Of a stretch of DNA of 64,000 nt, positions 8,944 through 20,267 are shown piece by piece (position 1 is the first letter of the stretch; each line of letters opens with the position of its first letter). Both the position numbers and the translations under genes were made by a program. The notes below the pieces were generated by a model. It did no database searches, was not told where the DNA came from, and saw nothing but the letters and a program-made list of their open reading frames with translations. Source of the stretch: Clostridia bacterium (GTDB taxonomy: Bacteria > Bacillota > Clostridia > Christensenellales > Borkfalkiaceae); contig JAFYWI010000001.1 of the NCBI GenBank assembly GCA_017558105.1, positions 1 to 64,000 of the forward strand, in the 5' to 3' direction.

Positions 8944-9228
8944 TTAAACTTCAAAGTCTATTGCAACGCTTTTTTCTACTACACTATGCATATGCTTTTT
9001 AACTACGTTTACGTGATATGCATCGTTTTGGTAGTCTTCTAAAGCCTTCATATCGTCTAATAAAACAGATAAATACACGTCGTAAGACCTTGCGCTTTTT
9101 AATAAGTCTACACCTACTTCAATGCCACGCATCATAGGAACGTTGCCTTGCATAGAAAGTAAAACTTCTTTTGCTTTTTCTACACTTTCGCCTTCTTTTA
9201 ACTTAAAACAAACTACGTGTTTAACCAT
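8944..9228 (-). CDS. Dabb (stress-responsive alpha/beta-barrel) domain protein
   Basis: A 94-aa dimeric ferredoxin-like Dabb protein; the family has diverse or unknown roles. The pattern matches: N-terminal MVKHVVCFKLKEG, central SYDVYLSVLLDD, and a His-containing YHVNVVKKHM segment. SD AAGGAG lies 7-8 bp upstream. It follows the BrxL-like gene after 44 bp holding a weak terminator hairpin and no clear promoter, so it may be expressed by readthrough from the accessory operon. A functional link is not shown. Confidence 0.85.
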   Translation of the reverse strand: MVKHVVCFKLKEGESVEKAKEVLLSMQGNVPMMRGIEVGVDLLKSARSYDVYLSVLLDDMKALEDYQNDAYHVNVVKKHMHSVVEKSVAIDFEV

Positions 9229-9243
9229 TATTTTCTCCTTTAT

Positions 9244-9270
9244 AAAAGGCTACGTGTTGGTAGCCTTTTT
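9244..9270 (-). terminator. Hairpin at the end of the ESCRT-like operon
   Basis: Stem AAAAGGCTAC/GTAGCCTTTT-type hairpin on the minus strand between the BrxL-like gene and the Dabb gene. The T stretch on the minus strand is short, so termination may be partial. Confidence 0.6.
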
Positions 9271-9272
9271 TG

Positions 9273-10685
9273 TTAAATTCTTTTAACAGAAATTCCCTTT
9301 ACTTCATTAGTTTTAAACTCTTTATCTATTAAAGTTAATTGTTTACGAATAATACTTCTCATTTTCATTGCAGGAACTAAGCAGTATTTTTCAAACTCAT
9401 CTATGTTAACGTCTTTTTTGCTTTGCCAATGTGGGAATAAAAGTTTAATATAGCCAGAACATAGCCTTTTAACGGCAGAAACGTCTCTTGTGTCGGCTGT
9501 TTCTTCAATATCTAATAAATCATCGACTAATGCGCCGTAAGTAACGTCTGAACGAAGTAAATGCATAATTTCAGAAAAATATTCGCTGTTTAACGATAAA
9601 CCTTTCATCTTCATGCTTTCTTTCATTCTTGGATTTTCCCAACCTTCAATAAAGCCGTGGAAACGGTCTAAAAGCGCAGAATCTTTGAAAATTTCTGGTA
9701 GTTCATCAAACATAGGGCAGTCTGTATCGAACCTTGCGCTATCTATATTCCCTAAGAATATCATACCTGCTTGAGAAGTGCCTGCCTTATTACCTACCGT
9801 GTATTTACCACTTTCTAAATAACCTTTCATTGCACCTTTCATTTCGTCGGCATCTGGTATTTTAATAGTAGCAATTTCGTCTACGGCAACAAAGTCGTAA
9901 CGGTTAATTAAGCCTTCTTGCCTTGTGTTCATATCGTAGAACAATTTTGCCCTAGTTAACACACCACCACTTATAAGCCAACCATATTTACTTATGTTTG
10001 AAAACATATAAGATTTGCCCGTGCCTTTTGGTGCTAATTCAATTAGGTTTAACCTGTTTTCAACGAAAATTAACATACGCCTAATTACAGAAAGTTTTTC
10101 TTCTTCAGTAAATGCGTTTGCATTATAGTCGAAACCACCTAAAAGGATTTCTAACCACTCGTCTAAACTAAAGTTTTTTCTAGCATTTTTATAGTATTTT
10201 AAGTCTGCTGTGTATGGTTGGAAAGAAGTAAAATCTTTTAAGCAAATTTTACTTTCTTTTTCTGAAACGCTTTTATAATAAAGCGTAACTATACCCCAAC
10301 ACTCGCCACCTGTTAAAATTTTGTTTTTAACGTTGCTCCAAACGGAAAATTCTATTAAGGTAGATTTTTCTGTAATATCGTAATCTGGCAAAGTAAAGGT
10401 TACCATACCAGTTTTTATGTCTATAACAACTTTTATTCTGGCAAGAATTTTAACTTCGCCACCATATAAAAGTTTATCCATAATGCTGTTCCAATAAGAC
10501 TTTGGTGGCAAATATGTATTAATTTTATCCATCATTAAAGAAGCATTTACAGAACCATCTGCATCAGAGTATTTCATAATAAACCAGTCTCTAATGAACG
10601 AAGGAACACCTAGCCCAGAAAAAATTTCTTGTGCGCCAGATTTCACAACAGCCATATCACCAAAATATTCTTTAATTTTACCCAT
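9273..10685 (-). CDS. BrxL-like AAA+ ATPase lacking the Lon-like domain
   Basis: Resembles the ATPase part of BrxL, the BREX effector with a Lon-like C-terminus. Visible in 470 aa: an N-terminal region like that of BrxL (KYSDADGSVNASLMMDKINTY-type stretch around residues 38-58), Walker A in ELAPKGTGKS (216-225), the family signature WLISGGVLTRAKLFYD (about 236-251), Walker B FVAVDE (265-270) and sensor LGNID (311-315). BrxL is usually about 680 aa; here the protein ends without a Lon-like protease domain. No other BREX gene (pglX, pglZ, brxA/B/C) is present. It is the last gene of the ESCRT-like operon, 29 bp after the TIR gene. I infer a remodelling or DNA/protein-translocating ATPase in a defence or stress system. 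Confidence 0.8.
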   Translation of the reverse strand: MGKIKEYFGDMAVVKSGAQEIFSGLGVPSFIRDWFIMKYSDADGSVNASLMMDKINTYLPPKSYWNSIMDKLLYGGEVKILARIKVVIDIKTGMVTFTLPDYDITEKSTLIEFSVWSNVKNKILTGGECWGIVTLYYKSVSEKESKICLKDFTSFQPYTADLKYYKNARKNFSLDEWLEILLGGFDYNANAFTEEEKLSVIRRMLIFVENRLNLIELAPKGTGKSYMFSNISKYGWLISGGVLTRAKLFYDMNTRQEGLINRYDFVAVDEIATIKIPDADEMKGAMKGYLESGKYTVGNKAGTSQAGMIFLGNIDSARFDTDCPMFDELPEIFKDSALLDRFHGFIEGWENPRMKESMKMKGLSLNSEYFSEIMHLLRSDVTYGALVDDLLDIEETADTRDVSAVKRLCSGYIKLLFPHWQSKKDVNIDEFEKYCLVPAMKMRSIIRKQLTLIDKEFKTNEVKGISVKRI

Positions 10686-10714
10686 AAATTCACCTTTTAA
10701 TAATAAATAATAGA

Positions 10715-13700
10715 TTAATCTTTATCGCCAAATATACCACCGATTATGCCTAAGAAAATTAATATACCAACTATTCCACCGCCACAACTACTGCAGTCGC
10801 CACAGTCTCCTGAACAATCGCCAGAATCAGAACCAGAGCCACAATCGTCGCAACCACCATTAGCACAACTAACAATACCTGAAAGCACTGCTATAACTAC
10901 AAAGGTTATAATTAAGAAACCAATTGCCATACTAAAGTCGTTATCGCATGCATACTTATACATAACACCCATGCCTATTATAGAGAGCGCTGGACCAACG
11001 ATAATATCTGCAATAATGTCGCCAAATACTGGTACGATACCCATTAGGTTTGTTATTACACATAGTAATGAGAACAATATACCAAACGACCAAATTTTGT
11101 AGCCTAACTTAGTATCGAAATCGTCAATCTTCTTACATAGAATTACTTGGCTTGTAATTTCTGCAGCGGTAACTGCTATTAACCAACCTAAATTTACACC
11201 TACAACCCAAGCAATTATAAACATAAGGTTTGCCATAAATGCCGCTAGGAAGTAGTGTACAAATGAACTATAACTCTTATACTTAAATACTGTAGGTATT
11301 ATTGCTAAAGTTAATGGAACAATTATTGCTATTACTTGATAAATTGGTGAAACAATATTGCTATAACATACAGAGAACGCTACACCTGCCGTTAACAAGT
11401 TTAAAAATGGTGCAATAAATACTTTCGTTGCAACTTCAAATTTACCAGATGCCATTAAAGTGTTTGCAATTATTGCAATTATGCCAAGTACGATTGGTAA
11501 AATAACGTTTATAAATGCAATTTTTTCTAACAACATAGCAAATGCTATTCCTGCACCAATTATGCAACCGTTAACAAGTAAAATTTGCCAACAATATTTA
11601 TTAATGCCAAATTGAACTTCTTTACCAAATGAAATTTGCATAAATACTAATGCGATGGCGGTAAATATTAAATAAGATAAATCTAATAATAAATAAATTT
11701 CAATACCAACGATTACGTTAGATATTAAGCAAATTAACAAGTTCCAATACTTCCTGCTCTTACAGAACATTATAAATGGAACAATTGCGTTCAACAACAG
11801 CGCTACTAGTTGTATTATTGTTAATACGTTAAATATTTCGCCAGAACCTATTAGTTCAAATATAGCGTTTATGTCTACACCAAGAATAACGTATGGTATA
11901 ACAAAGAAAACAAAACTTAATACTAGTGAAAGTAGTGGCAACAATGCAAAGTTGCAAACACCTATACCAAAAGCAACTTCTGCATTATGTACTTCTTGTG
12001 CTCTTTGTTTTCTTTCTTCTTGGTTACGTTTTTCTTTAACGATTAGTGCGTTTGCTAAAATACTATCAAAATTGTCGCTAGTAGCATCGTCTAATTGTTT
12101 AATTAAGTCTTTATTAGCGTTTGCATTTTTTGCAAGACTTGTTAATAACTTTTTATATTTCTTTCTGTTTACGCCTTCTTTAACTGCATCTTGCTTATAA
12201 GCAGTTGCATTTAAATATTGGCTTTGTTTTTTAGATGCACAGTTACAAGCATTATCGTATTCTTGGCATTCTTCTATAGATTTTGAAGAAAGCAATATGC
12301 CAACAATATCTTTTGCTTCTAATTCTGTGTGTATGCAAGCCCAGTAAGCATTAAAGTTCTTTTCATCTTCCCTCAACACCTTTTTATAATATTGTTCTGC
12401 TAACTTAAATTCGGCTATACTATGTAAATAATAACCCATAGCGAAAGAACGGTCTATCATAAATTCGTGTTCTTCTTCTGGAATATAACTTAAGAAAGTA
12501 CAATAAATTATATCTGCTTCAGCAGGTTTAACAATTTTTTTCTTTAAGCCTTCAATAACGCTATCTGTAAAGTCAGTAATTAATGAAGAGAAAGAAAATT
12601 TCTTGTCTTTTTTGTTGGTTAGTGCATAACCCAACATATCTTCTAAATCTTTAGTAATTTCAGGCTTATTGCCGTGTTTATTGTAGAAGAAAGGTAGGTT
12701 TTCGGAAATATCGTCGTCAAAAGATTTTACCTTTGCCATAACCAAGTTATACCTTGCTTCTACGTTAGATTCATCTATAGATATAACTTTTTCTAAATAT
12801 TTAATAGCAGTATCAAAATCTTTTAGTTCACGTCTGTTAATAGCATACATCATAGAATATTCTATGTGGTTATCAACCAAACTACCATCTGTAGATTTAA
12901 GAATATAATCTACAAAATCCGTTACGTAGTCTATTGGATAGAAAACTCCATTTTTAATATTTTCTAAAACAGCCGATAAAATTTGCTTTTTAGCACTTTC
13001 TCTATTTTTAAAGTTAAACTCTAATATAGCCTTAAATTGATCTAAAGGCTTTAATAAAGTCGTTAATAATTGTTTGTTTTTAGATTCTTTTGGATTTGTA
13101 TATAACCCACCCTTTCCACATTTTTTAACAGCACTTAGTATGCTTTCGTTAATAAAATCAATATCTTCGTTTGCAATGTTTGCAGGAGAGTTTTGAATTA
13201 ACCTTTTAATTAAATTCATGTCTCCTAAATAGAAGGTATTAGCAAGTTCTTGTGGGTTTAATGAACAACGAAGTTGAATAACTATGCTATAAACTAGCGC
13301 TTCGTGTTCAGAAGGGTCAATATCTAAAATTTTATTGTTATATTTTTCTGCAAGGTCAAATACTTTGTTTGCTTTACCATCAAACTTAACGTTTTTATTT
13401 TCTAAAATGGCTTCAACAATACCCACGGCTTCTTTAATGTAAACGTCAACGTCGCCTGCATCAATAGAGCTTAAATATGCTTCAATAACTTTATCTGCAC
13501 GAGCATATGAACCCCTAGATTCATCTTTTAATACTTGTTTAGAAATTCTTTCTTTTAAGAAAGAAATAACTTCTTTTCTTTGTGGAATATTATATTTAAT
13601 TAAAACGTTAAAGAAGGCAACACCTTCGTCTATCTCGCAATCTGCAAAGCAAGTTTTACAAGCATTTAATACTAAATCTGCAATTTTAACAAGTTGTTCT

Positions 13701-15058
13701 TTGTCGGCACATTCAATAGCACGGTCTAAAAGAGGATATTCTTTAAATCTTTCCGCGTTTATAACGAAATCTTCTTCAGATTTAGTTTTTATAGAACATA
13801 AGATTTTACCATATATTGCATCAAAATTTTCGCCAGATTGTAAAACGCTATCAAACCTTTTCATTGCGGCATCAAAACGCCTATTTTTTAATGCGTCGTA
13901 AGCATTTTCAATTATACGTTGAGTTGATGCTGGAACGTGATATTCACTTTTACTTTCAAGGCTTTTAACAACAAGGTTACCCTTAACGGTTGAAGATTTT
14001 TTAGAAACGTCGAAATTACCTAATTCTGCCGTTTGTAAAGTTTCACCTGCAACGGTTTTTGCTTTTTTCTTAGAACCACCACCAAGTTTTACCCTTGTAA
14101 CACCAGCTCTGTTACCAGCGCCAATGATAGACCTAACTTTTTCAAAAATTCTTTCTAAAAAGTCTCTGTCTGCGTTGTTATAACCTTGAATTTGGTTAAT
14201 TTGGTATGGTAAATCGCTTGGAACGTCTCTATCGTAAACGTATAATAAAGAGTTTTCTGGCTTACGTAGTCTTGAGTTTTTACCTACTTTTGCAGCATCT
14301 GCAAAGTACAAGTATCTTGTCCATTCGTTTTTAACCCATTCACTTTCTAAATATTCACCTTGTGTACCAATTAATATCATACATTGGCAAGATGCTAATG
14401 CAGAGAAAATTTTAGGTTCGTAGTTTTCACCTTCAACGTCCCCTTCACCAATAGATACAGGGCTGAAGAAAACGGTATAGTTTCTTTTGGTAAAATATTC
14501 ATATAATTCTCTACCAATTTTAACGTCTTCAGTGTCTACTCTTCTAACGTTACCTGCTTTGTCTGTAACTTCTTCTTTAGCCTTAAAACTAATGAAAATA
14601 TCGCAATAGTTTTTAACACCCATATTATCACAGGCCTCAAGCCTAAATGCTTCAATTTTTTCGGCTTGTTTTTTGTAATATTCAGCAGTGTCTGGCTCTG
14701 CATTTTCTATTGCAAGTTTTAAGTTTTTATCTGAAGAAACTTTGTCTCTTGTAAAAAAGTCGTTAAAGAAAGTTGGTTTTCTTTCTTTAGTAACAGGGTC
14801 TGAAACGTAATAAATATTGTTCTTTGCTAAAAAGTACAACCAATTTAGTTTAGAATTGGTTGGGTGTTCTCTTAACGCAGATTGACAACGAGCAACGGCA
14901 TTTTCAAAAAGCCTTGCTTCAATATCACGCATTATACTTGATGCTTCGCCAAAATCGTCGTCAGTTTTTATTCTGGTTCCACAACTTTCACAAACAAGTC
15001 CTTTGGCTCTTTCAACGAATATATTACAGCCACAATTAGGACAACATTTTTCTGCCAT
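10715..15058 (-). CDS. Giant zinc-ribbon / TIR / TPR / polytopic membrane protein
   Basis: A 1447-aa multidomain protein. In order: zinc ribbon (CPNC at 6-9 and CESC at 23-26); helical segment; TIR domain (about 150-312) starting YCDIFISFKA, with FFSPVSIGEGD and SEWVKNEW; TPR-like helical repeats (about 375-1010); 12-14 membrane helices (about 1030-1390); and a Gly/Cys/Ser/Asp-rich stretch before a last hydrophobic segment. Glu245 in WVKNE aligns with the catalytic Glu of NAD-cleaving TIRs, so NADase or cyclase activity is plausible but unproven. I infer a membrane-bound sensor-effector. It sits between the zinc-ribbon protease and BrxL-like genes. This domain order is unfamiliar to me. Confidence 0.85.
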   Translation of the reverse strand: MAEKCCPNCGCNIFVERAKGLVCESCGTRIKTDDDFGEASSIMRDIEARLFENAVARCQSALREHPTNSKLNWLYFLAKNNIYYVSDPVTKERKPTFFNDFFTRDKVSSDKNLKLAIENAEPDTAEYYKKQAEKIEAFRLEACDNMGVKNYCDIFISFKAKEEVTDKAGNVRRVDTEDVKIGRELYEYFTKRNYTVFFSPVSIGEGDVEGENYEPKIFSALASCQCMILIGTQGEYLESEWVKNEWTRYLYFADAAKVGKNSRLRKPENSLLYVYDRDVPSDLPYQINQIQGYNNADRDFLERIFEKVRSIIGAGNRAGVTRVKLGGGSKKKAKTVAGETLQTAELGNFDVSKKSSTVKGNLVVKSLESKSEYHVPASTQRIIENAYDALKNRRFDAAMKRFDSVLQSGENFDAIYGKILCSIKTKSEEDFVINAERFKEYPLLDRAIECADKEQLVKIADLVLNACKTCFADCEIDEGVAFFNVLIKYNIPQRKEVISFLKERISKQVLKDESRGSYARADKVIEAYLSSIDAGDVDVYIKEAVGIVEAILENKNVKFDGKANKVFDLAEKYNNKILDIDPSEHEALVYSIVIQLRCSLNPQELANTFYLGDMNLIKRLIQNSPANIANEDIDFINESILSAVKKCGKGGLYTNPKESKNKQLLTTLLKPLDQFKAILEFNFKNRESAKKQILSAVLENIKNGVFYPIDYVTDFVDYILKSTDGSLVDNHIEYSMMYAINRRELKDFDTAIKYLEKVISIDESNVEARYNLVMAKVKSFDDDISENLPFFYNKHGNKPEITKDLEDMLGYALTNKKDKKFSFSSLITDFTDSVIEGLKKKIVKPAEADIIYCTFLSYIPEEEHEFMIDRSFAMGYYLHSIAEFKLAEQYYKKVLREDEKNFNAYWACIHTELEAKDIVGILLSSKSIEECQEYDNACNCASKKQSQYLNATAYKQDAVKEGVNRKKYKKLLTSLAKNANANKDLIKQLDDATSDNFDSILANALIVKEKRNQEERKQRAQEVHNAEVAFGIGVCNFALLPLLSLVLSFVFFVIPYVILGVDINAIFELIGSGEIFNVLTIIQLVALLLNAIVPFIMFCKSRKYWNLLICLISNVIVGIEIYLLLDLSYLIFTAIALVFMQISFGKEVQFGINKYCWQILLVNGCIIGAGIAFAMLLEKIAFINVILPIVLGIIAIIANTLMASGKFEVATKVFIAPFLNLLTAGVAFSVCYSNIVSPIYQVIAIIVPLTLAIIPTVFKYKSYSSFVHYFLAAFMANLMFIIAWVVGVNLGWLIAVTAAEITSQVILCKKIDDFDTKLGYKIWSFGILFSLLCVITNLMGIVPVFGDIIADIIVGPALSIIGMGVMYKYACDNDFSMAIGFLIITFVVIAVLSGIVSCANGGCDDCGSGSDSGDCSGDCGDCSSCGGGIVGILIFLGIIGGIFGDKD

Positions 15059-15088
15059 TATTATCTCCTTAATACGTAGTTATTTTTC

Positions 15089-15988
15089 TTATTTGTTTAT
15101 ATAATCTATAACGTCAAATGCAAATTTAACGCTTCTTAATGGGCCACTAACCGTTGACATATTAGAGCCTAAAACAGAGTAAACTTCACCTAAAACACTT
15201 CTTTTTAAGTTTGTTTTGCTCTTTACGTATGCAATAAATTCCTTAACGATGTTAATTGGAATAGCATAGTTCATACCCTTTGCATTTTCAACACCTGCAA
15301 CTAGTACGCCAATAACGTCGCCCATTTCATTTAATAATGGACCACCAGAGTTACCGTGGTTTGCGGCAGCGTCTGTCATTATGTATGGATATGAAAGACC
15401 TGGCATTTTTCTTTTAGCATCGCTAATAATACCAGAAGTAATACAAGTACCAGCGCCAAGAGAGTTACCTATTAAGTAAACCTTTTGACCGTTACGAAGT
15501 TTAGAAGAATCGCCTAAAGTTGCAATGTCTGAACCTTTAAGGTCTGGTGAGTAAATTAAAGCAATATCTAAAGAATCGTCTTTACCATTACTTGGTGCAC
15601 CACACGCTACAACTAAAGACCTATAATATTTATCTCCCACCTTAACGTAAATTTCTGGGAATAAAGAGCCGTTAGAATCTAATACGGCGTGAGCATTGGT
15701 AATAATTAAACCTGTTGAAGTTATAAAAAATCCAGATGCTCTTGCAGCAGAGTTGTCGTTTTGAACGTAAATTTCAACTGCAACACCTTGCATTTTATCG
15801 TAAATTTCTTCACCACTTAAAACGTTTGGTTTTGCTGGTGCGCTTGGAGCAGCCGGAGCTGGTGCAACCGGAGCAGGTTTTGCTTCAACTTTAGCAAAAG
15901 TTGCGCCACAACAAGCACATTTATATATAATTTCACCATTTCTTTCAATTTCTTTGCAGTCTGAACCACAGTTATTGCAAGTTTTCAT
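15089..15988 (-). CDS. Zinc-ribbon trypsin-like serine protease (S1C/HtrA-like), cytosolic
   Basis: A 299-aa protein with an N-terminal zinc ribbon (CNNC at 4-7, CACC at 24-27), an Ala/Pro linker (about 37-53) and a trypsin-like fold. The catalytic triad is readable: His100 in TNAHAV, Asp141 in SLDIAL, Ser214 in GNSGGPL. There is no signal peptide, membrane segment or PDZ domain, unlike typical secreted HtrA, so it should act in the cytoplasm. It lies 19 bp downstream of the MIT-AAA gene and 30 bp before the TIR gene; the zinc ribbon it shares with its neighbours suggests a common recruitment surface. Plausible role: a protease switched on by the module. Confidence 0.9.
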   Translation of the reverse strand: MKTCNNCGSDCKEIERNGEIIYKCACCGATFAKVEAKPAPVAPAPAAPSAPAKPNVLSGEEIYDKMQGVAVEIYVQNDNSAARASGFFITSTGLIITNAHAVLDSNGSLFPEIYVKVGDKYYRSLVVACGAPSNGKDDSLDIALIYSPDLKGSDIATLGDSSKLRNGQKVYLIGNSLGAGTCITSGIISDAKRKMPGLSYPYIMTDAAANHGNSGGPLLNEMGDVIGVLVAGVENAKGMNYAIPINIVKEFIAYVKSKTNLKRSVLGEVYSVLGSNMSTVSGPLRSVKFAFDVIDYINK

Positions 15989-16007
15989 AATTAATCTCCT
16001 TATACTT

Positions 16008-17537
16008 TTAGAAAAGTTCGTTTTCTATTATTCCTTTTGTAAAGGTAATTTCCGTTTTATTAATAAGTTTTTCTGCATAGATTTCCAAAATGTAACTACC
16101 ACTTTCTGTAATTTCTAATTCTTCGGTAATCCAATTTTGAATTCTCTTGCTACAAGTATATCTTTTGCCGTCAATTTTTACAGTTATACCATTAAAATCT
16201 CCTTCAATATAGAATTCAATTTTAGGTTTTTCTGCAGGGTTAAGTTGAATCGTAGTTTCTGCAAAAATAATTTTTGGCATTTCTGTTTTAACTTCTATAA
16301 TAGGCTCTTCTTTAGGTGTTTCTACCACTGGTTCAACTGGTGTTTCTACAGGTTGCTCAACTGGAGTTTCAGTAGGTTTTTGTACCCTTTTTTCTTCGTT
16401 AAGAGTGTTTACCCCTGCAAACCTATCAAAGACTTCTATTTCGCTTCTAGAAACAGAAGGTTTAACCTTACTAAACGCCTTTTCCATATGCGCCATAGTA
16501 ATTTTAACCTTGTTGCCCGTTTTAATAAATTCGTTAAGTGGTTCAATTTTTGCAGAGTCTATAATTTCTGTAATATCTGCACCACTATAACCATAAGAAC
16601 GTTCTGCTAAAACGTCAAAATCTATGCCGTCTAAAATTTCGTCGTTCTTTAAGCCACGAGTAAACAAATAGCGCCTTGCAGCAAAGTCTGGTAATGGAAT
16701 ATAAATCTTTTCAGAAAATCTTCCAGAACGAACTGCCGCAGAGTCTATTGCCCAAGGTCTGTTCGTTGCACCTAAAAGCAATAAGTTAGGGTTTTTACCT
16801 GCGAAACCATCTATTTGTTGCAAGAATTCGTTAACCCTTTGGTCGTTGTGAATATCGTTGCCCCTAGTGCCAAACAAGTTATCCATTTCGTCAATGAAAA
16901 TAATAGCAAGTTTTTCTTTAGAAGCCGCTTCAAATAACGAATTAATGTTTTGTTCGCTTTCACCTACCCATTTACTAACGATATCAGATGCCTTAATAGC
17001 ATAGAAAACTGCACCTACTTCGTGGGCGATTGCTTTAGCAATCATAGTTTTACCTGTTCCTGGAGGGCCGTATAACAACACACCACCACCCGTTTTCTTA
17101 CCATATAATTGGTATGCTTCTGGGTGTTTTAACGGGTTAATCATTCTAATAGTAATAGTTCTTTTAACTTCATCTAAGCCAGCGATATCGTCAAAAGAAA
17201 TATCTGGAATTTTAGCCGCTTTCCAATCTTTTCCATTATTGTCTTGAGTTGAAGAAGAGTTACCCGTATTGCCACCTTTATTATCGTTTGAAGGTGGTGC
17301 TTTTTTCTTTGGCATGCCGTTTACATCAAAACTATTAGCAATTTCTATAAGCCTTTTAGCCTTGGTCATTCTTGCTTCTTTTAATTGAGGCGAACTTTCC
17401 TTAGCCATTTCAAGCATTTTTTGAGCAGCAAGTTGATAATTTCTTTTTGCAAGAAAATAATCACCCTTTTGTTCTGCTTTTTTTGCAGCATTAAAATATA
17501 ATTCGTAATGCTCTGATAATAAATTTAAGTCTCCCAT
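16008..17537 (-). CDS. Vps4-like AAA+ ATPase with N-terminal MIT-like domain
   Basis: A 509-aa classical AAA ATPase. Residues 1-75 form a three-helix pattern typical of MIT domains (YFNAAKKAEQKGDYFLA, then RNYQLAAQKM and a third helix), followed by a Ser/Asn/Gly linker. AAA core: DDIAGLDEVK (116-125), Walker A GPPGTGKT (157-164), pore loop SKWVGESE (188-195) with Trp190 as in Vps4/katanin, Walker B IIFIDE (212-217), sensor 1 GATNRP (256-261), arginine fingers around 270-273. After a Pro/Glu/Thr/Val linker (about 385-420) comes a beta-rich, Ig-like C-terminal domain, which Vps4 lacks. It lies 33 bp downstream of a Snf7-like gene. By analogy it would disassemble ESCRT-III-like polymers. Confidence 0.88.
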   Translation of the reverse strand: MGDLNLLSEHYELYFNAAKKAEQKGDYFLAKRNYQLAAQKMLEMAKESSPQLKEARMTKAKRLIEIANSFDVNGMPKKKAPPSNDNKGGNTGNSSSTQDNNGKDWKAAKIPDISFDDIAGLDEVKRTITIRMINPLKHPEAYQLYGKKTGGGVLLYGPPGTGKTMIAKAIAHEVGAVFYAIKASDIVSKWVGESEQNINSLFEAASKEKLAIIFIDEMDNLFGTRGNDIHNDQRVNEFLQQIDGFAGKNPNLLLLGATNRPWAIDSAAVRSGRFSEKIYIPLPDFAARRYLFTRGLKNDEILDGIDFDVLAERSYGYSGADITEIIDSAKIEPLNEFIKTGNKVKITMAHMEKAFSKVKPSVSRSEIEVFDRFAGVNTLNEEKRVQKPTETPVEQPVETPVEPVVETPKEEPIIEVKTEMPKIIFAETTIQLNPAEKPKIEFYIEGDFNGITVKIDGKRYTCSKRIQNWITEELEITESGSYILEIYAEKLINKTEITFTKGIIENELF

Positions 17538-17570
17538 AATTTACCTTTATAGTAGTATTTTTTATCTTTA

Positions 17571-18149
17571 TTAAACTTGACCAGATTCTAATTCTTTGCG
17601 TAATTTTTCTAATTCTGCATCAATATCGTCGTCGGTAGATTCTTCCGATTTAATTTGATTTTCAATCATGCTATCGATTTCTTTATCATCTGTCTTTTTA
17701 ATATTTGCAGCGCTTGCAAAAGAGTCTTTACTAGTTTCCATAAAGATTTCAATTTGTTGAGTTTGTGTTTCTACGTTAGCCATAGCCGTTTCAAACTCTT
17801 TTTGAACTTTAACAAATTCTTTTTTATTAGCAAGTTTAGACATTTGTTTGCTTAAAACGCTCATACCACCCAAAAATTCAGTAGTCATCATAGTCATATC
17901 TTTCATTTGAGCAGTAATTTCAAAGTTAAGTAGCATTTCTTGCGCTCTTTTTTGTTGAGTTAAAGTCATTTTATAACCGGTTAATGCAAGGTTATATTGA
18001 GATTCTAGGCCGTGCTTCTTTGCTTCTTTAGCCTTGTCTATAAAAACCTTTTTTTGTTCTTCTAAAGTTTCAATTTGCTTATTCATAGAGTTAATTGTTT
18101 TCTTTATAAGCATTTTCTTTTCTATTTCTTTATTTTTTTTACCCCACAT
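17571..18149 (-). CDS. ESCRT-III (Snf7)-like coiled-coil protein A with C-terminal MIM1-like motif
   Basis: A 192-aa, almost wholly helical protein. The start MWGKKNKE is a short amphipathic/basic segment like the MW-type start of yeast Snf7; residues 13-75 form the basic long hairpin (KKTINSMNKQIETLEEQKK, then AKEAKKHG and a second helix); residues 80-148 are Met-rich helices; the last 45 residues are acidic. Residues 176-184, IDAELEKLR, match the spacing of a MIM1 motif (L-x-x-R/E-L-x-x-L-K/R). Adjacent to the MIT-AAA gene (33 bp) and to a second Snf7-like gene (19 bp). PspA/Vipp1-type membership of the same superfamily is an alternative. Predicted to polymerise on membranes. Confidence 0.7.
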   Translation of the reverse strand: MWGKKNKEIEKKMLIKKTINSMNKQIETLEEQKKVFIDKAKEAKKHGLESQYNLALTGYKMTLTQQKRAQEMLLNFEITAQMKDMTMMTTEFLGGMSVLSKQMSKLANKKEFVKVQKEFETAMANVETQTQQIEIFMETSKDSFASAANIKKTDDKEIDSMIENQIKSEESTDDDIDAELEKLRKELESGQV

Positions 18150-18168
18150 AGTAAAATCTCCTTAAAAA

Positions 18169-18768
18169 TTAATTAGCACTGCTATCTGCTTCTTTTTCTT
18201 CATCAAATTGGCTTTGTTCAATATCTAAATCTTCATCTAAGCCCTTTTCAGTTTCAAACATAGCAAGTAAAGCATCGTCGTTCTTTTGAACACCGTAAAT
18301 ATTGTCGTTTGCTTCGTAACTATCTTGAATTTCGTTAAAGATTTCGTCTGCAGAAGTTAAAATTTGTTCATCTTTAACCTTAGTATTTAATGCTTTATTT
18401 AAGAATTTTGCTAAACCTTTTTGGTCTGCAAGTAAATTACGCATAGAAATTTTGCCAGTGTTTGCAATAAATTGGTTGTCGTCTATAGCGTCTTTTAGCC
18501 TTTTTGCCAATTTTATGTTATAAAGCAAGTACATACCACGCTTAATATCTGCTTCTTTTTCTTCTTTAAGCATAGTAATTTTTTTAGCAAGAAAAAGTTG
18601 CATATCTCTGTTCTTTTCTGCCTTACCTTTTCTCATTAAGTCTTCAATTTGTTTAGTTTTTTCTATAATACCTTGTTCAATATCTGCTTCTTGTTTTTCT
18701 AATTGGCAAATAGAATCTACTACGTCTTCTCTTTTTAATTTTTGATATTTACTCTTAAATGGCCACAT
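18169..18768 (-). CDS. ESCRT-III (Snf7)-like coiled-coil protein B
   Basis: A 199-aa helical protein laid out like its neighbour: start MWPFKSKYQKLKRED, basic hairpin with coiled coil (about 15-90, with LMRKGKAEKNRDMQLFLAKK resembling the K-rich turn of Snf7 proteins), middle helices (about 105-150) and an acidic tail ending EEKEADSSAN. I see no MIM1 motif; ALLAMFETEK near 167 is the only hydrophobic patch in the tail. Probably a partner or regulatory paralogue, as ESCRT-III subunits work in sets. The SD is AGGGGA, and a hairpin lies in the 63-bp gap upstream. Confidence 0.65.
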   Translation of the reverse strand: MWPFKSKYQKLKREDVVDSICQLEKQEADIEQGIIEKTKQIEDLMRKGKAEKNRDMQLFLAKKITMLKEEKEADIKRGMYLLYNIKLAKRLKDAIDDNQFIANTGKISMRNLLADQKGLAKFLNKALNTKVKDEQILTSADEIFNEIQDSYEANDNIYGVQKNDDALLAMFETEKGLDEDLDIEQSQFDEEKEADSSAN

Positions 18769-18791
18769 AATAGTTCCCCTTTATTAAATTC

Positions 18792-18824
18792 AAAAATCGT
18801 GCATCAAATTGATGTACGACTTTT
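18792..18824 (-). terminator. Possible internal attenuator hairpin in the ESCRT-like operon
   Basis: Imperfect 14-15-bp stem (one G-U, one A-C mismatch) followed on the minus strand by five T, between the 112-aa gene and Snf7-like B. It may lower expression of the downstream genes relative to the SPFH and 112-aa genes. Confidence 0.45.
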
Positions 18825-18831
18825 GTTAGTT

Positions 18832-19170
18832 TTATATAAGTTTTGCTTTCCTTTCAGCAATAGCAATTTCTAGTTCAGCAGTAACTCTTTCCCAGCCTTC
18901 AAAATTGCCTTTTTGGCTATATTTACTTAAAGCAATCTTTGCATCGCCAAGTTTATCACCAATTTTCTTATCTAAATGTTGAATTTTTTCATCTTCACTT
19001 GGATTTAAATATTTAATTTTTTCTTGAAGTTCTAAAAGTTTTTTAGTTAAACCTTCTTGACCTTGTGCATAAACAACTAAAACGTCTATTGCTTGTGCGT
19101 TGGCTTTTATTAAATCTATATCGTTAACAACTTTTTCTTTAATAGTTTTCTTTTTTCTCCAAAAACACAT
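18832..19170 (-). CDS. Small helical protein of unknown function in the ESCRT-like operon
   Basis: A 112-aa protein I do not recognise. It starts MCFWRKKKTIKEK, a basic N-terminus with Cys2 and Trp4 that resembles the MW-type starts of the two Snf7-like proteins and could touch membranes. The rest is predicted helical with coiled-coil character (KKLLELQEKIKYL, then a helix ending AIAERKAKLI). It lies 11 bp after the SPFH gene and 63 bp before Snf7-like B. It could be a truncated ESCRT-III-like subunit or an adaptor; nothing in the sequence decides this. Confidence 0.7.
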   Translation of the reverse strand: MCFWRKKKTIKEKVVNDIDLIKANAQAIDVLVVYAQGQEGLTKKLLELQEKIKYLNPSEDEKIQHLDKKIGDKLGDAKIALSKYSQKGNFEGWERVTAELEIAIAERKAKLI

Positions 19171-19181
19171 AATTCATTCTC

Positions 19182-20267
19182 CTATTCACTTAATTTAGAA
19201 CCACAACCACTACAGAAAGCAGCGTCTGCAGGAACTTCTTTATTACATTTTGGGCATAATCTCTTAAGGTTACCTACTGGTTTACCACAACCTGGGCAGA
19301 ACTTATCTCCATTTTCGTAACTATGACCACACTTACTACAGAAATGAGCGCCTTTTGCTTTTTTAGCATCTGGGCTAACACCAATTACTTTTAATACTTC
19401 TAGGTATTTTTCGTAATCTTTGCTTTCTAATTCGCGAAGCCATTTTTCTCTTTCCCATTCTTTGTCGCCTAAACGTTCTAATTCAGCAGCAATTTCCTTA
19501 GCATCAGCTTTTTCTTCTAATTTCTTTTGACGTGCTTTTTCTTCTTCTCTTGCTTGCTTGATTTCGTCTTTTTGTTCTTGGCTCATTGCTTTTCTTGCTT
19601 GTTCTAAACGAGCAATATCTTCTTCAGAAATGAAGATTTTGTTTATAATGAACTTAAATAATTTTAAGCCATATTGTTCTTCAAACATTTTATTTAATTC
19701 TGGGAAAACTTCTTCTTCAATTTTCTTTGTATATTCAACTACTTCGTAATAGCGAATACAATTTCTACGCATTGCAGAAGAAATAGCAGGATTAATTACT
19801 GCAAGCATTTGATTTAACAAATATTCTTGCAAATCTTCTGCTTTGTATAATTTAGATACACCAATCAATTCTAAATAAGCTTTTCTTGGGTTGCAGATTT
19901 GAACGTAGAATTCACCGTTTGCACCAATTTTGAAAGCTTCGTCTGTAACTGAATCTACAAAATCGAATTTACTTCTTGTTCCCCAAGGAACTCTTAATTT
20001 ATAGGTTTTAGACATATAGATTACGTCTACGGTAAAGTCTAACTTTTTAGGCTTACCTAAACCAAATAAACCACTTTTTTTGGTTTCGAAAATTTTATGG
20101 CTACCACTATCTAAGGTAGGCATTGCTTGACCATCTCTTACAACTATTGCATTATGAGTATCTGGCACGATAATTACTGCATCTGAGGCATAACCTTCGT
20201 CCATACATTGTTTGCGAAATAATTCTTCGTTATTACCTTCATACTTAAACATTTTCTTGAGTTCCAT
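19182..20267 (-). CDS. SPFH-domain protein with C-terminal double zinc ribbon
   Basis: A 361-aa protein with an N-terminal beta-rich SPFH/band-7-like domain (about 30-215; DAVIIVPDTHNAIVVRDGQ, later KAYLELIG), a charged helical coil (about 220-300) and two zinc ribbons (CSKC/CPGC, about 312-330; CPKC/CSGC, about 338-356). SPFH proteins form membrane-associated oligomeric cages or microdomains. This type resembles the B. subtilis YdjI group, whose gene lies next to a PspA homologue, itself an ESCRT-III superfamily protein. First gene of the operon, with SD AGGAGG (20273-20278). A second SPFH-ribbon protein is encoded at 50804. Confidence 0.88.
   Translation of the reverse strand: MELKKMFKYEGNNEELFRKQCMDEGYASDAVIIVPDTHNAIVVRDGQAMPTLDSGSHKIFETKKSGLFGLGKPKKLDFTVDVIYMSKTYKLRVPWGTRSKFDFVDSVTDEAFKIGANGEFYVQICNPRKAYLELIGVSKLYKAEDLQEYLLNQMLAVINPAISSAMRRNCIRYYEVVEYTKKIEEEVFPELNKMFEEQYGLKLFKFIINKIFISEEDIARLEQARKAMSQEQKDEIKQAREEEKARQKKLEEKADAKEIAAELERLGDKEWEREKWLRELESKDYEKYLEVLKVIGVSPDAKKAKGAHFCSKCGHSYENGDKFCPGCGKPVGNLKRLCPKCNKEVPADAAFCSGCGSKLSE

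Follow-up and report, generated by a model that had tools for sequence, protein, structure and literature searches.

ESCRT systems (endosomal sorting complexes required for transport) have a published definition and are stated there to be confined to archaea and eukaryotes (PMC10936438; this paper, PMC11237479 and PMC12839542 are cited here from excerpts). The archaeal systems, such as Meth_adaptin and Cdv, hold ESCRT-III and an MIT-bearing Vps4 in one locus (PMC10936438). Vps4-like AAA ATPases are also known in bacteria, where a TPR-6TM gene takes the place of snf7, as are bacterial operons that combine Snf7 homologs and an AAA with ABC transporter and OmpA genes (Ravi et al., PMC11237479). 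In some phage shock protein (PSP) systems, such as the ydjF operon of B. subtilis, a member of the ESCRT-III superfamily lies beside a Band-7 zinc-ribbon protein (PMC11237479), and the SPFH protein YdjI is needed for the localisation of PspA (PMC10936438). The subject of the present work is an operon of eight open reading frames (ORFs), all on the minus strand and spanning 20267-9273 in ORF coordinates, in a stretch of 64,000 nucleotides from a Clostridia bacterium (contig JAFYWI010000001.1, positions 1 to 64,000), hereafter the window. Judged by its predicted proteins, the operon qualifies as an ESCRT system in the sense of the published definition, as excerpted from PMC10936438, and its novelty lies in the bacterial setting and in the new partners, namely a TIR protein, a protease and BrxL.

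The operon resembles the archaeal ESCRT loci in the association of ESCRT-III with an MIT-Vps4 protein, and Meth_adaptin loci likewise have an SPFH protein with a coiled coil and a zinc ribbon, along with immunoglobulin-like (Ig-like) domains (PMC10936438). The order of two ESCRT-III-like genes upstream of a Vps4-like gene is also found in the Thermococcus locus L171. It differs from the archaeal systems, as far as they are covered by the excerpts of PMC10936438, in its bacterial host and in its TIR, protease and BrxL cargo, and no winged-helix or adaptin protein was identified among its eight proteins. With PSP and the ydjF operon it shares the pairing of an ESCRT-III superfamily member with a Band-7 zinc-ribbon protein (PMC11237479), whereas gene 4 is of the Snf7 type by sequence, an MIT-AAA gene is present and no PspA was found in the genome. 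The combination of SPFH, MIT, TIR, protease and BrxL proteins is not described for the cases in the excerpts of Ravi et al. (PMC11237479). Furthermore, no paper in the open-licence literature searched was recognised as describing this operon, which is a weak absence.

The ESCRT assignment starts from gene 4 (17571..18149, 192 aa), which can be placed in the ESCRT-III (Snf7) family because its orthologue in the locus L131/L161 passes the curated cut-off of Pfam Snf7 (PF03357; 34.0 bits, cut-off 27.3, E 2.8e-8). This locus, which contains TIR, genes 1-4, the MIT-AAA gene with its C-terminal domain and BrxL, belongs to the same BrxL-bearing subtype as the window, with identities of 42% for gene 4, 50% for gene 5 and 53% for BrxL. 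Among the families listed for a 26-sequence alignment of gene 4 members (A3), Snf7 was the one matching most of them (10/26 at E<=1, best 2.8e-8). Moreover, when the best 120 of 289 gene 4 relatives, retrieved with diverged members as queries, were inspected, 8 had Snf7 as sole precomputed Pfam domain, the label being the database's own annotation, and 112 had none. PspA_IM30 was absent among the families listed for gene 4, for its L131/L161 orthologue and for A3 (25 of 56 families in the case of A3). When the gene 4 structure model was compared with the PDB by Foldseek, ranks 1-18 of 264 were all occupied by the ESCRT-III superfamily, headed by Asgard ESCRT-IIIB (E 0.016, probability 1.00). 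The conserved helix at the C-terminal tail follows an acidic amphipathic pattern in 90/102 proteins and resembles an MIT-interacting motif of the MIM1 consensus.

The recurrence of the gene set has been established in 110 loci: 80 from a scan covering 84,980 species, each represented by a single genome (81 sites of gene 4 relatives, 80 kept), 29 stretches from the same order and the window. The scan used two peptide patterns, so that more diverged loci were missed. Removal of 13 loci with a repeated gene 4 sequence (last 150 residues) left 97 non-redundant loci; L111-L140, which served in a first BLAST survey and in part for alignments, are excluded from the counts. Gene 4 shares its stretch with an MIT-AAA gene in 95 of the 97 loci, gene 1 is present in 84, gene 3 in 83 and gene 2 in 82, and the order 1-2-3-4 is kept in 75, several of the misses being cut contigs. 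Because of these presence counts and the synteny, genes 1-5 constitute the conserved core; the set is no chance assembly, its core recurring in order across loci. The cargo varies in order and presence: TIR was found in 52 loci, the protease in 31 and BrxL in 9, each counted anywhere in the locus stretch and not in the operon alone, and absences may be false since many contigs are cut. Most of the named relatives are Clostridia metagenome-assembled genomes (MAGs), Candidatus Coproplasma and Christensenellaceae being examples, and core-bearing relatives occur within the window's order. Archaeal contamination was considered and rejected, given that the cores are located on long contigs (up to 824 kb) of bacterial MAGs in many genomes. 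As a separate observation, one distant gene 4 relative (P0287) is named Anaerocaecibacter muris and is not marked as a MAG, so its host may be in culture.

Next to gene 4 lies gene 5 (16008..17537, 509 aa), composed of MIT, AAA ATPase and Vps4_C domains and of a C-terminal beta-rich domain (here g5C, 16011..16286, about residues 418-509). Pfam matches were obtained for AAA (1.7e-40), for Vps4_C (1.1e-4, 22.6 bits, above the cut-off of 21.3) and for MIT, where E fell from 0.0094 for the entire protein to 1e-4 (22.7 bits) when only the N-terminal 75 aa were searched. The CdvC model NF041006 aligns with residues 6-373 at 215 bits, short of its equivalog cut-off of 650, and among 95 gene 5 proteins Walker A and B patterns occur together in 93, the remaining 2 having Walker A only. 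A hidden Markov model (HMM) of the MIT region built from these loci scored 11.6 bits with the Vps4-like ATPase of Thermococcus and 14.4 bits with that of Chlorohelix; none of the 1679 scored background ORFs, and none of 500 shuffles made from the first 100 residues of either ATPase, scored as high (the background set for the HMM tests comprises 2803 ORFs, 1679 to 1750 of which were scored and compared). According to Makarova et al. (PMC10936438, excerpts), Vps4 is recognised by an MIT domain or by ESCRT genes nearby; by its sequence, gene 5 qualifies as such, since it has an MIT match and adjoins gene 4, with which an MIT-AAA gene shares the stretch in nearly all loci. It is predicted to be a filament-remodelling motor.

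Two further properties of gene 5 concern its modularity. One relative (L107:10564-11748) keeps the MIT region with the AAA part replaced by a CbbX-like one (named by eye), and another (L079:8184-10373) has the MIT region together with a CbbX-like AAA (by eye) in front of a Vps4-like one; the MIT region thus appears as the invariable connection with the ESCRT-III-like proteins, and the motors are exchanged. The g5C domain has a DUF7862 match at residues 424-499 (1.3e-4, 22.4 bits, cut-off 27). It occurs together with BrxL in 9/9 loci, while BrxL is present in 0/88 others (Fisher 7e-13, shared ancestry uncorrected), and it is therefore predicted that the two ATPases touch each other or that the motor binds to a BrxL complex.

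Upstream of these genes, gene 1 (19182..20267, 361 aa) encodes an SPFH (Band 7) protein with a charged coiled-coil region and two C-terminal zinc ribbons (Pfam Band_7_1 1.7e-9; DZR, double zinc ribbon, 4.4e-10). Scanning of this protein for transmembrane (TM)-like stretches gave none, and it is predicted to act as a membrane-proximal scaffold. Genes 2 and 3 are unnamed by any profile family above its cut-off. The product of gene 2 (18832..19170), a helical protein of 112 aa belonging to the core, may be an adaptor or nucleator. Gene 3 (18169..18768, 199 aa) likely encodes a second ESCRT-III-like subunit, as suggested by sequence and model: CdvB2 filaments take Foldseek ranks 1-8 of 334 (E 0.11-0.36), and its HMM gave 13.7 bits with a gene of the Thermococcus peptonophilus ESCRT-like locus and 17.5 bits with a gene of the Chlorohelix plasmid locus, values that none of the 1739 scored background ORFs and none of 500 shuffles of either gene attained. 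The N-termini of ESCRT-III (Snf7) proteins insert into, or touch, the membrane. An N-terminal aromatic-basic pattern was found in 72/82 gene 3, 64/104 gene 4 and 27/81 gene 2 proteins, and in 163/1845 background ORFs.

Several results weigh against the ESCRT assignment and have to be set beside the above. The window's own gene 4 reaches only 11.4 bits with Snf7 (cut-off 27.3), and a search of the window's own genome with the Snf7 profile gave no match. The gene 4 model is weak (pLDDT 64, pTM 0.42; predicted local distance difference test and template modelling scores), as is that of gene 3 (pLDDT 66). Neither fold search produced a match at E<0.001 and, in VIA-align, unrelated helical bundles scored like ESCRT-III with both models, so the fold of gene 4 is not decisive by itself. 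Nor can the fold separate Snf7 from PspA types, because the 18 top matches of gene 4 include Vipp1 and PspA. The gene 4 HMM did not rise above background with the ESCRT-like genes of Thermococcus, Chlorohelix and Haloplanus, so that the link is carried by the Snf7 match of the orthologue. The coiled-coil genes of the ESCRT-like loci of Thermococcus and Chlorohelix likewise gave no Snf7 match at E 0.1, and those of all three organisms are read as ESCRT-III from their position beside a Vps4-like ATPase. A PDB sequence search with the gene 3 and gene 4 profiles yielded nothing significant, CHMP2A appearing only at E 1.1 and 3.4; Snf7 was not among the families listed for 17 gene 3 members, and no significant similarity was seen between the gene 3 profile and that of gene 4. 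As regards gene 5, the 22.7 bits of its MIT match lie below the Pfam cut-off of 30, and MIT was matched by 3/10 gene 5 members at E<=1. A CDC48 model scores 217 bits on its AAA part, on a par with CdvC. In the AAA tree, where long branches are flagged, gene 5 forms its own clade with the long-branched L164 apart, and its order relative to Vps4, CDC48 and FtsH is not firm.

The term bacterial ESCRT-like operon, introduced by the initial annotation, nevertheless stands, from the Snf7 match of the orthologue, the MIT match of gene 5, the fold searches headed by ESCRT-III and the conserved gene set. That annotation would have been refuted by a lack of Snf7, PspA and MIT matches combined with a non-ESCRT fold, or by a gene set not conserved in relatives. 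The searches instead placed Snf7 above its cut-off in the L131/L161 gene 4 and MIT in gene 5 below the curated one, brought ESCRT-III structures first for both coiled-coil genes (with weak E-values) and found the core conserved across the 97 loci. Likewise, the protein identities named in it were recovered by profile search for the SPFH-zinc-ribbon, MIT-AAA, protease, TIR-TPR-membrane and BrxL proteins, and Snf7 membership for the gene 4 family, gene 3 being a likely ESCRT-III-like protein.

Related domains have also been encountered in other contexts. A gene 4-type domain is fused to a RuvB/MoxR-like AAA in L169 (L137:385-2052) and to an FtsK-like ATPase in L163 (L133:1501-3036), both partners being named by eye. 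A second possible bacterial ESCRT locus lies on a plasmid of Candidatus Chlorohelix, a member of the Chloroflexota (L172; NZ_CP128401.1, 1-4655). It comprises two coiled-coil genes, a Vps4-like ATPase that the MIT HMM matches at its N-terminus, and a Ser/Thr kinase, in a layout similar to that of Thermococcus L171; the gene 3 HMM matches the gene at 1-633 of this locus.

The cargo of the window consists of three genes. Gene 6 (15089..15988, 299 aa) encodes a zinc-ribbon, trypsin/HtrA-like serine protease (Trypsin_2 9.2e-24), for which the domain search gave no PDZ match; the Ser and His motifs of the protease are conserved in 31/31 loci (in 20 by pattern and in 11 by eye). Gene 7 (10715..15058, 1447 aa) has the architecture zinc ribbon, TIR, TPR and multi-TM: TIR_2 was matched at 2.8e-6 (28.3 bits, cut-off 28), TPR was also matched, and 13 TM-like hydrophobic stretches lie within residues 1026-1447; the protein is a predicted membrane-anchored effector. 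The WxxxE motif of TIR domains is catalytic. It is present in gene 7 as WVKNE, as in Thoeris and other TIR defence proteins, and is kept in 47/62 TIR proteins of the loci; gene 7 is unlike Thoeris in that the ThcB4 model gives 26.3 bits vs a cut-off of 220. Finally, gene 8 (9273..10685, 470 aa) is a short BrxL with neither Lon nor HKD extension and with an intact Walker A (PADLOC BrxL 1.5e-189; TIGR02688 433 bits).

The short form of gene 8, lacking a C-terminal extension, is that of the BrxL of type 4 BREX (bacteriophage exclusion; PMC12839542). As a whole the operon is unlike BREX, with no BrxC, PglX, PglZ, BrxA or BrxB among its eight proteins, and PglZ, the sole BREX gene sought in the window's own genome, gave one partial match there (22.1 bits, E 7e-5, cut-off 25), located on a different contig. 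The membership of BrxL in BREX, taken over by the initial annotation, therefore does not carry across to this operon, given that PglZ stays below the cut-off in the genome and that the eight proteins include no further BREX member. In the main text of the BREX paper, SPFH, ESCRT, Snf7, Vps4 and TIR do not appear (PMC12839542).

Variants of the TIR cargo have been observed in two groups of loci. In the subtype L043-L080 (34/80 loci), a 117-aa TPR gene lies between genes 2 and 3, and a TPR protein of ~1,200 residues carries a decayed or undetectable TIR. In L032, L039-L042, L079 and L081, two different TIR-TPR proteins adjoin each other between genes 4 and 5, the first of the two being devoid of the catalytic motif in L032 and L081.

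Taken as a working model, the operon would encode an ESCRT-type machine, in which a membrane filament is built and dismantled and passes a damage signal to TIR, protease and BrxL; a probability of about one half is attributed to this reading. From the observed gene content and its conservation, the Snf7 membership of gene 4, the MIT and Vps4_C domains of gene 5 and the co-occurrence of g5C with BrxL, we infer polymerisation, membrane contact, MIT binding, a signal and an output. Initially, the SPFH-zinc-ribbon protein would likely mark or organise a membrane site and recruit the filament, by analogy with YdjI and PspA (PMC10936438, excerpts). Subsequently, with gene 2 as a possible nucleator, the products of genes 3 and 4 would copolymerise via their hairpins on the inside of the cell membrane, and their aromatic-basic N-termini may contact the membrane. 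The MIT domain of gene 5 would then bind the C-terminal helix of gene 4, the AAA ring extracting subunits and thereby driving remodelling at the expense of ATP. Under damage or phage attack, the filament would be kept assembled or trapped, switching on the membrane-anchored TIR-TPR protein (predicted NAD hydrolysis), while the protease would act on clients and BrxL, perhaps linked through g5C, on DNA.

The foremost alternative is housekeeping envelope maintenance, in which the ESCRT-like filament, SPFH and MIT-AAA proteins repair or curve the membrane in place of PspA and the cargo serves as non-immune scaffolds or client handlers. We consider it rather unlikely and place it behind the immune-linked reading. 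The absence of PspA (PF04012) from the window's own genome, which is 85% complete, speaks in its favour, and so does the surrounding of the loci. In a flank sample of 110 ORFs from 34 loci (the first 34 of 48, L110, L145, L158, L159 and L161 being left out), ABC transporters and metabolic genes lead and most ORFs are housekeeping-like. Furthermore, 16 loci of the 117-aa-TPR subtype share downstream ABC-transporter-like genes (cluster 6, 19/80 loci overall; identity by eye), as stable inheritance predicts. In PADLOC searches of the flanks at E 1e-10, mad3 leads with 13 members (raw counts), the same number as Pfam ABC_tran, and these matches are taken as ABC ATPases; single strong matches were found for PDC-S01 (5e-154), PDC-S33, PDC-M69A, LeoA and AriA, so that some defence candidates may be present in a few of the flanks. 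No match to gene 4 was found in plasmid, phage and viral contig collections, another point that does not favour an immune role.

The TIR proteins bear on this alternative from both sides. WxxxE is absent in 15/62 of them: all 10/10 recognisable TIR domains of the 117-aa-TPR subtype, for which NAD hydrolysis is improbable since the motif is missing, and 5 further proteins without the strict motif, including the TIR proteins of the BrxL-bearing loci L090 (YVKNE) and L161. Moreover, no TIR is detectable in 45/97 locus stretches, some of them through cut contigs. Against plain maintenance stand the 47 TIR proteins which retain the motif, the cargo enzyme types, which are known from defence systems, and a presence that is patchy even within families. 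Thus, the system was found in 28/297 genomes of the order, in 13/151 of the window's family, in 21/74 of another family and in 1/118 of a further one, and a phylum sample gave 1/398 positive genomes, the window's own. The immune part accordingly has mixed support, in which patchy presence, swappable defence-type cargo and largely intact catalytic motifs would count for it.

A third explanation, quite unlikely in our view, is SPFH-AAA quality control: an AAA unfoldase and an HtrA-like protease would receive membrane proteins from a coiled-coil platform, and the ESCRT likeness of genes 3 and 4 would come from convergence of long helical hairpins. The co-occurrence of SPFH, AAA and protease would fit, as would the lack of significant alignment between the gene 3 and gene 4 profiles and the fold scores reached by other helical bundles. 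Convergence is less easily reconciled with the orthologue's 34 bits above the curated Snf7 cut-off, with MIT and Vps4_C in gene 5, or with ESCRT-III superfamily structures at fold ranks 1-18 for gene 4 and CdvB2 at ranks 1-8 for gene 3, and the protease is present in only 31/97 loci. Finally, a Cdv-like cell-division or vesicle-forming ESCRT acquired from archaea is very improbable: although two ESCRT-III-like genes precede the MIT-AAA gene as in the Thermococcus locus (where a kinase gene lies between) and the gene 3 HMM matches L171:2482-3087, 138/151 genomes of the window's family are without a match, so the system is hardly essential for division there.

Returning to the immune-linked ESCRT machine, a bolder version can be put forward tentatively, with less confidence than the working model itself. 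Bacteria would have a complete ESCRT-III/Vps4 machine of their own that serves as an innate-immune platform: an SPFH-anchored filament would patrol the membrane, an MIT motor would sustain its turnover, and stalled turnover, at a wound or at the site of phage entry, would fire interchangeable effectors (TIR, protease or DNA-acting BrxL). The motor would be adapted to the effector in this version, because g5C tracks BrxL.

As to the layout of the operon, the intergenic gaps from gene 1 to gene 8 are 11, 63, 19, 33, 19, 30 and 29 bp, in agreement with the eight same-strand genes and gaps of 11-63 bp noted from the letters alone. The hairpin noted at the end of the operon was also recovered: a terminator-like structure 3' of gene 8 (9244..9269, minus strand), with a 10-bp stem (9269-9260/9253-9244) and the loop CAACAC, was read by eye and is not among the candidates in the output of the terminator scan. 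The promoter claimed ahead of gene 1 fared worse. The site is present (TTGATT-17-TAAAAT at 20353-20325) but carries no weight, being indistinguishable from chance, since the region holds 50 such sites vs 46.4 expected in shuffles. Directly 3' of the hairpin lies a small gene (8944-9228, minus strand; Dabb-like by eye), which was found in 27/43 other genomes of the genus; six other window genes compared were absent near it in those genomes (<=1.5 kb each side, some stretches being cut).

An operon with a Snf7-family protein, an MIT-AAA ATPase and an SPFH protein, present in dozens of Clostridia genomes, would shift the archaea/eukaryote border of ESCRT systems. It would offer a compact ESCRT for reconstitution and would make ESCRT-based membrane surveillance and TIR signalling testable as one system.

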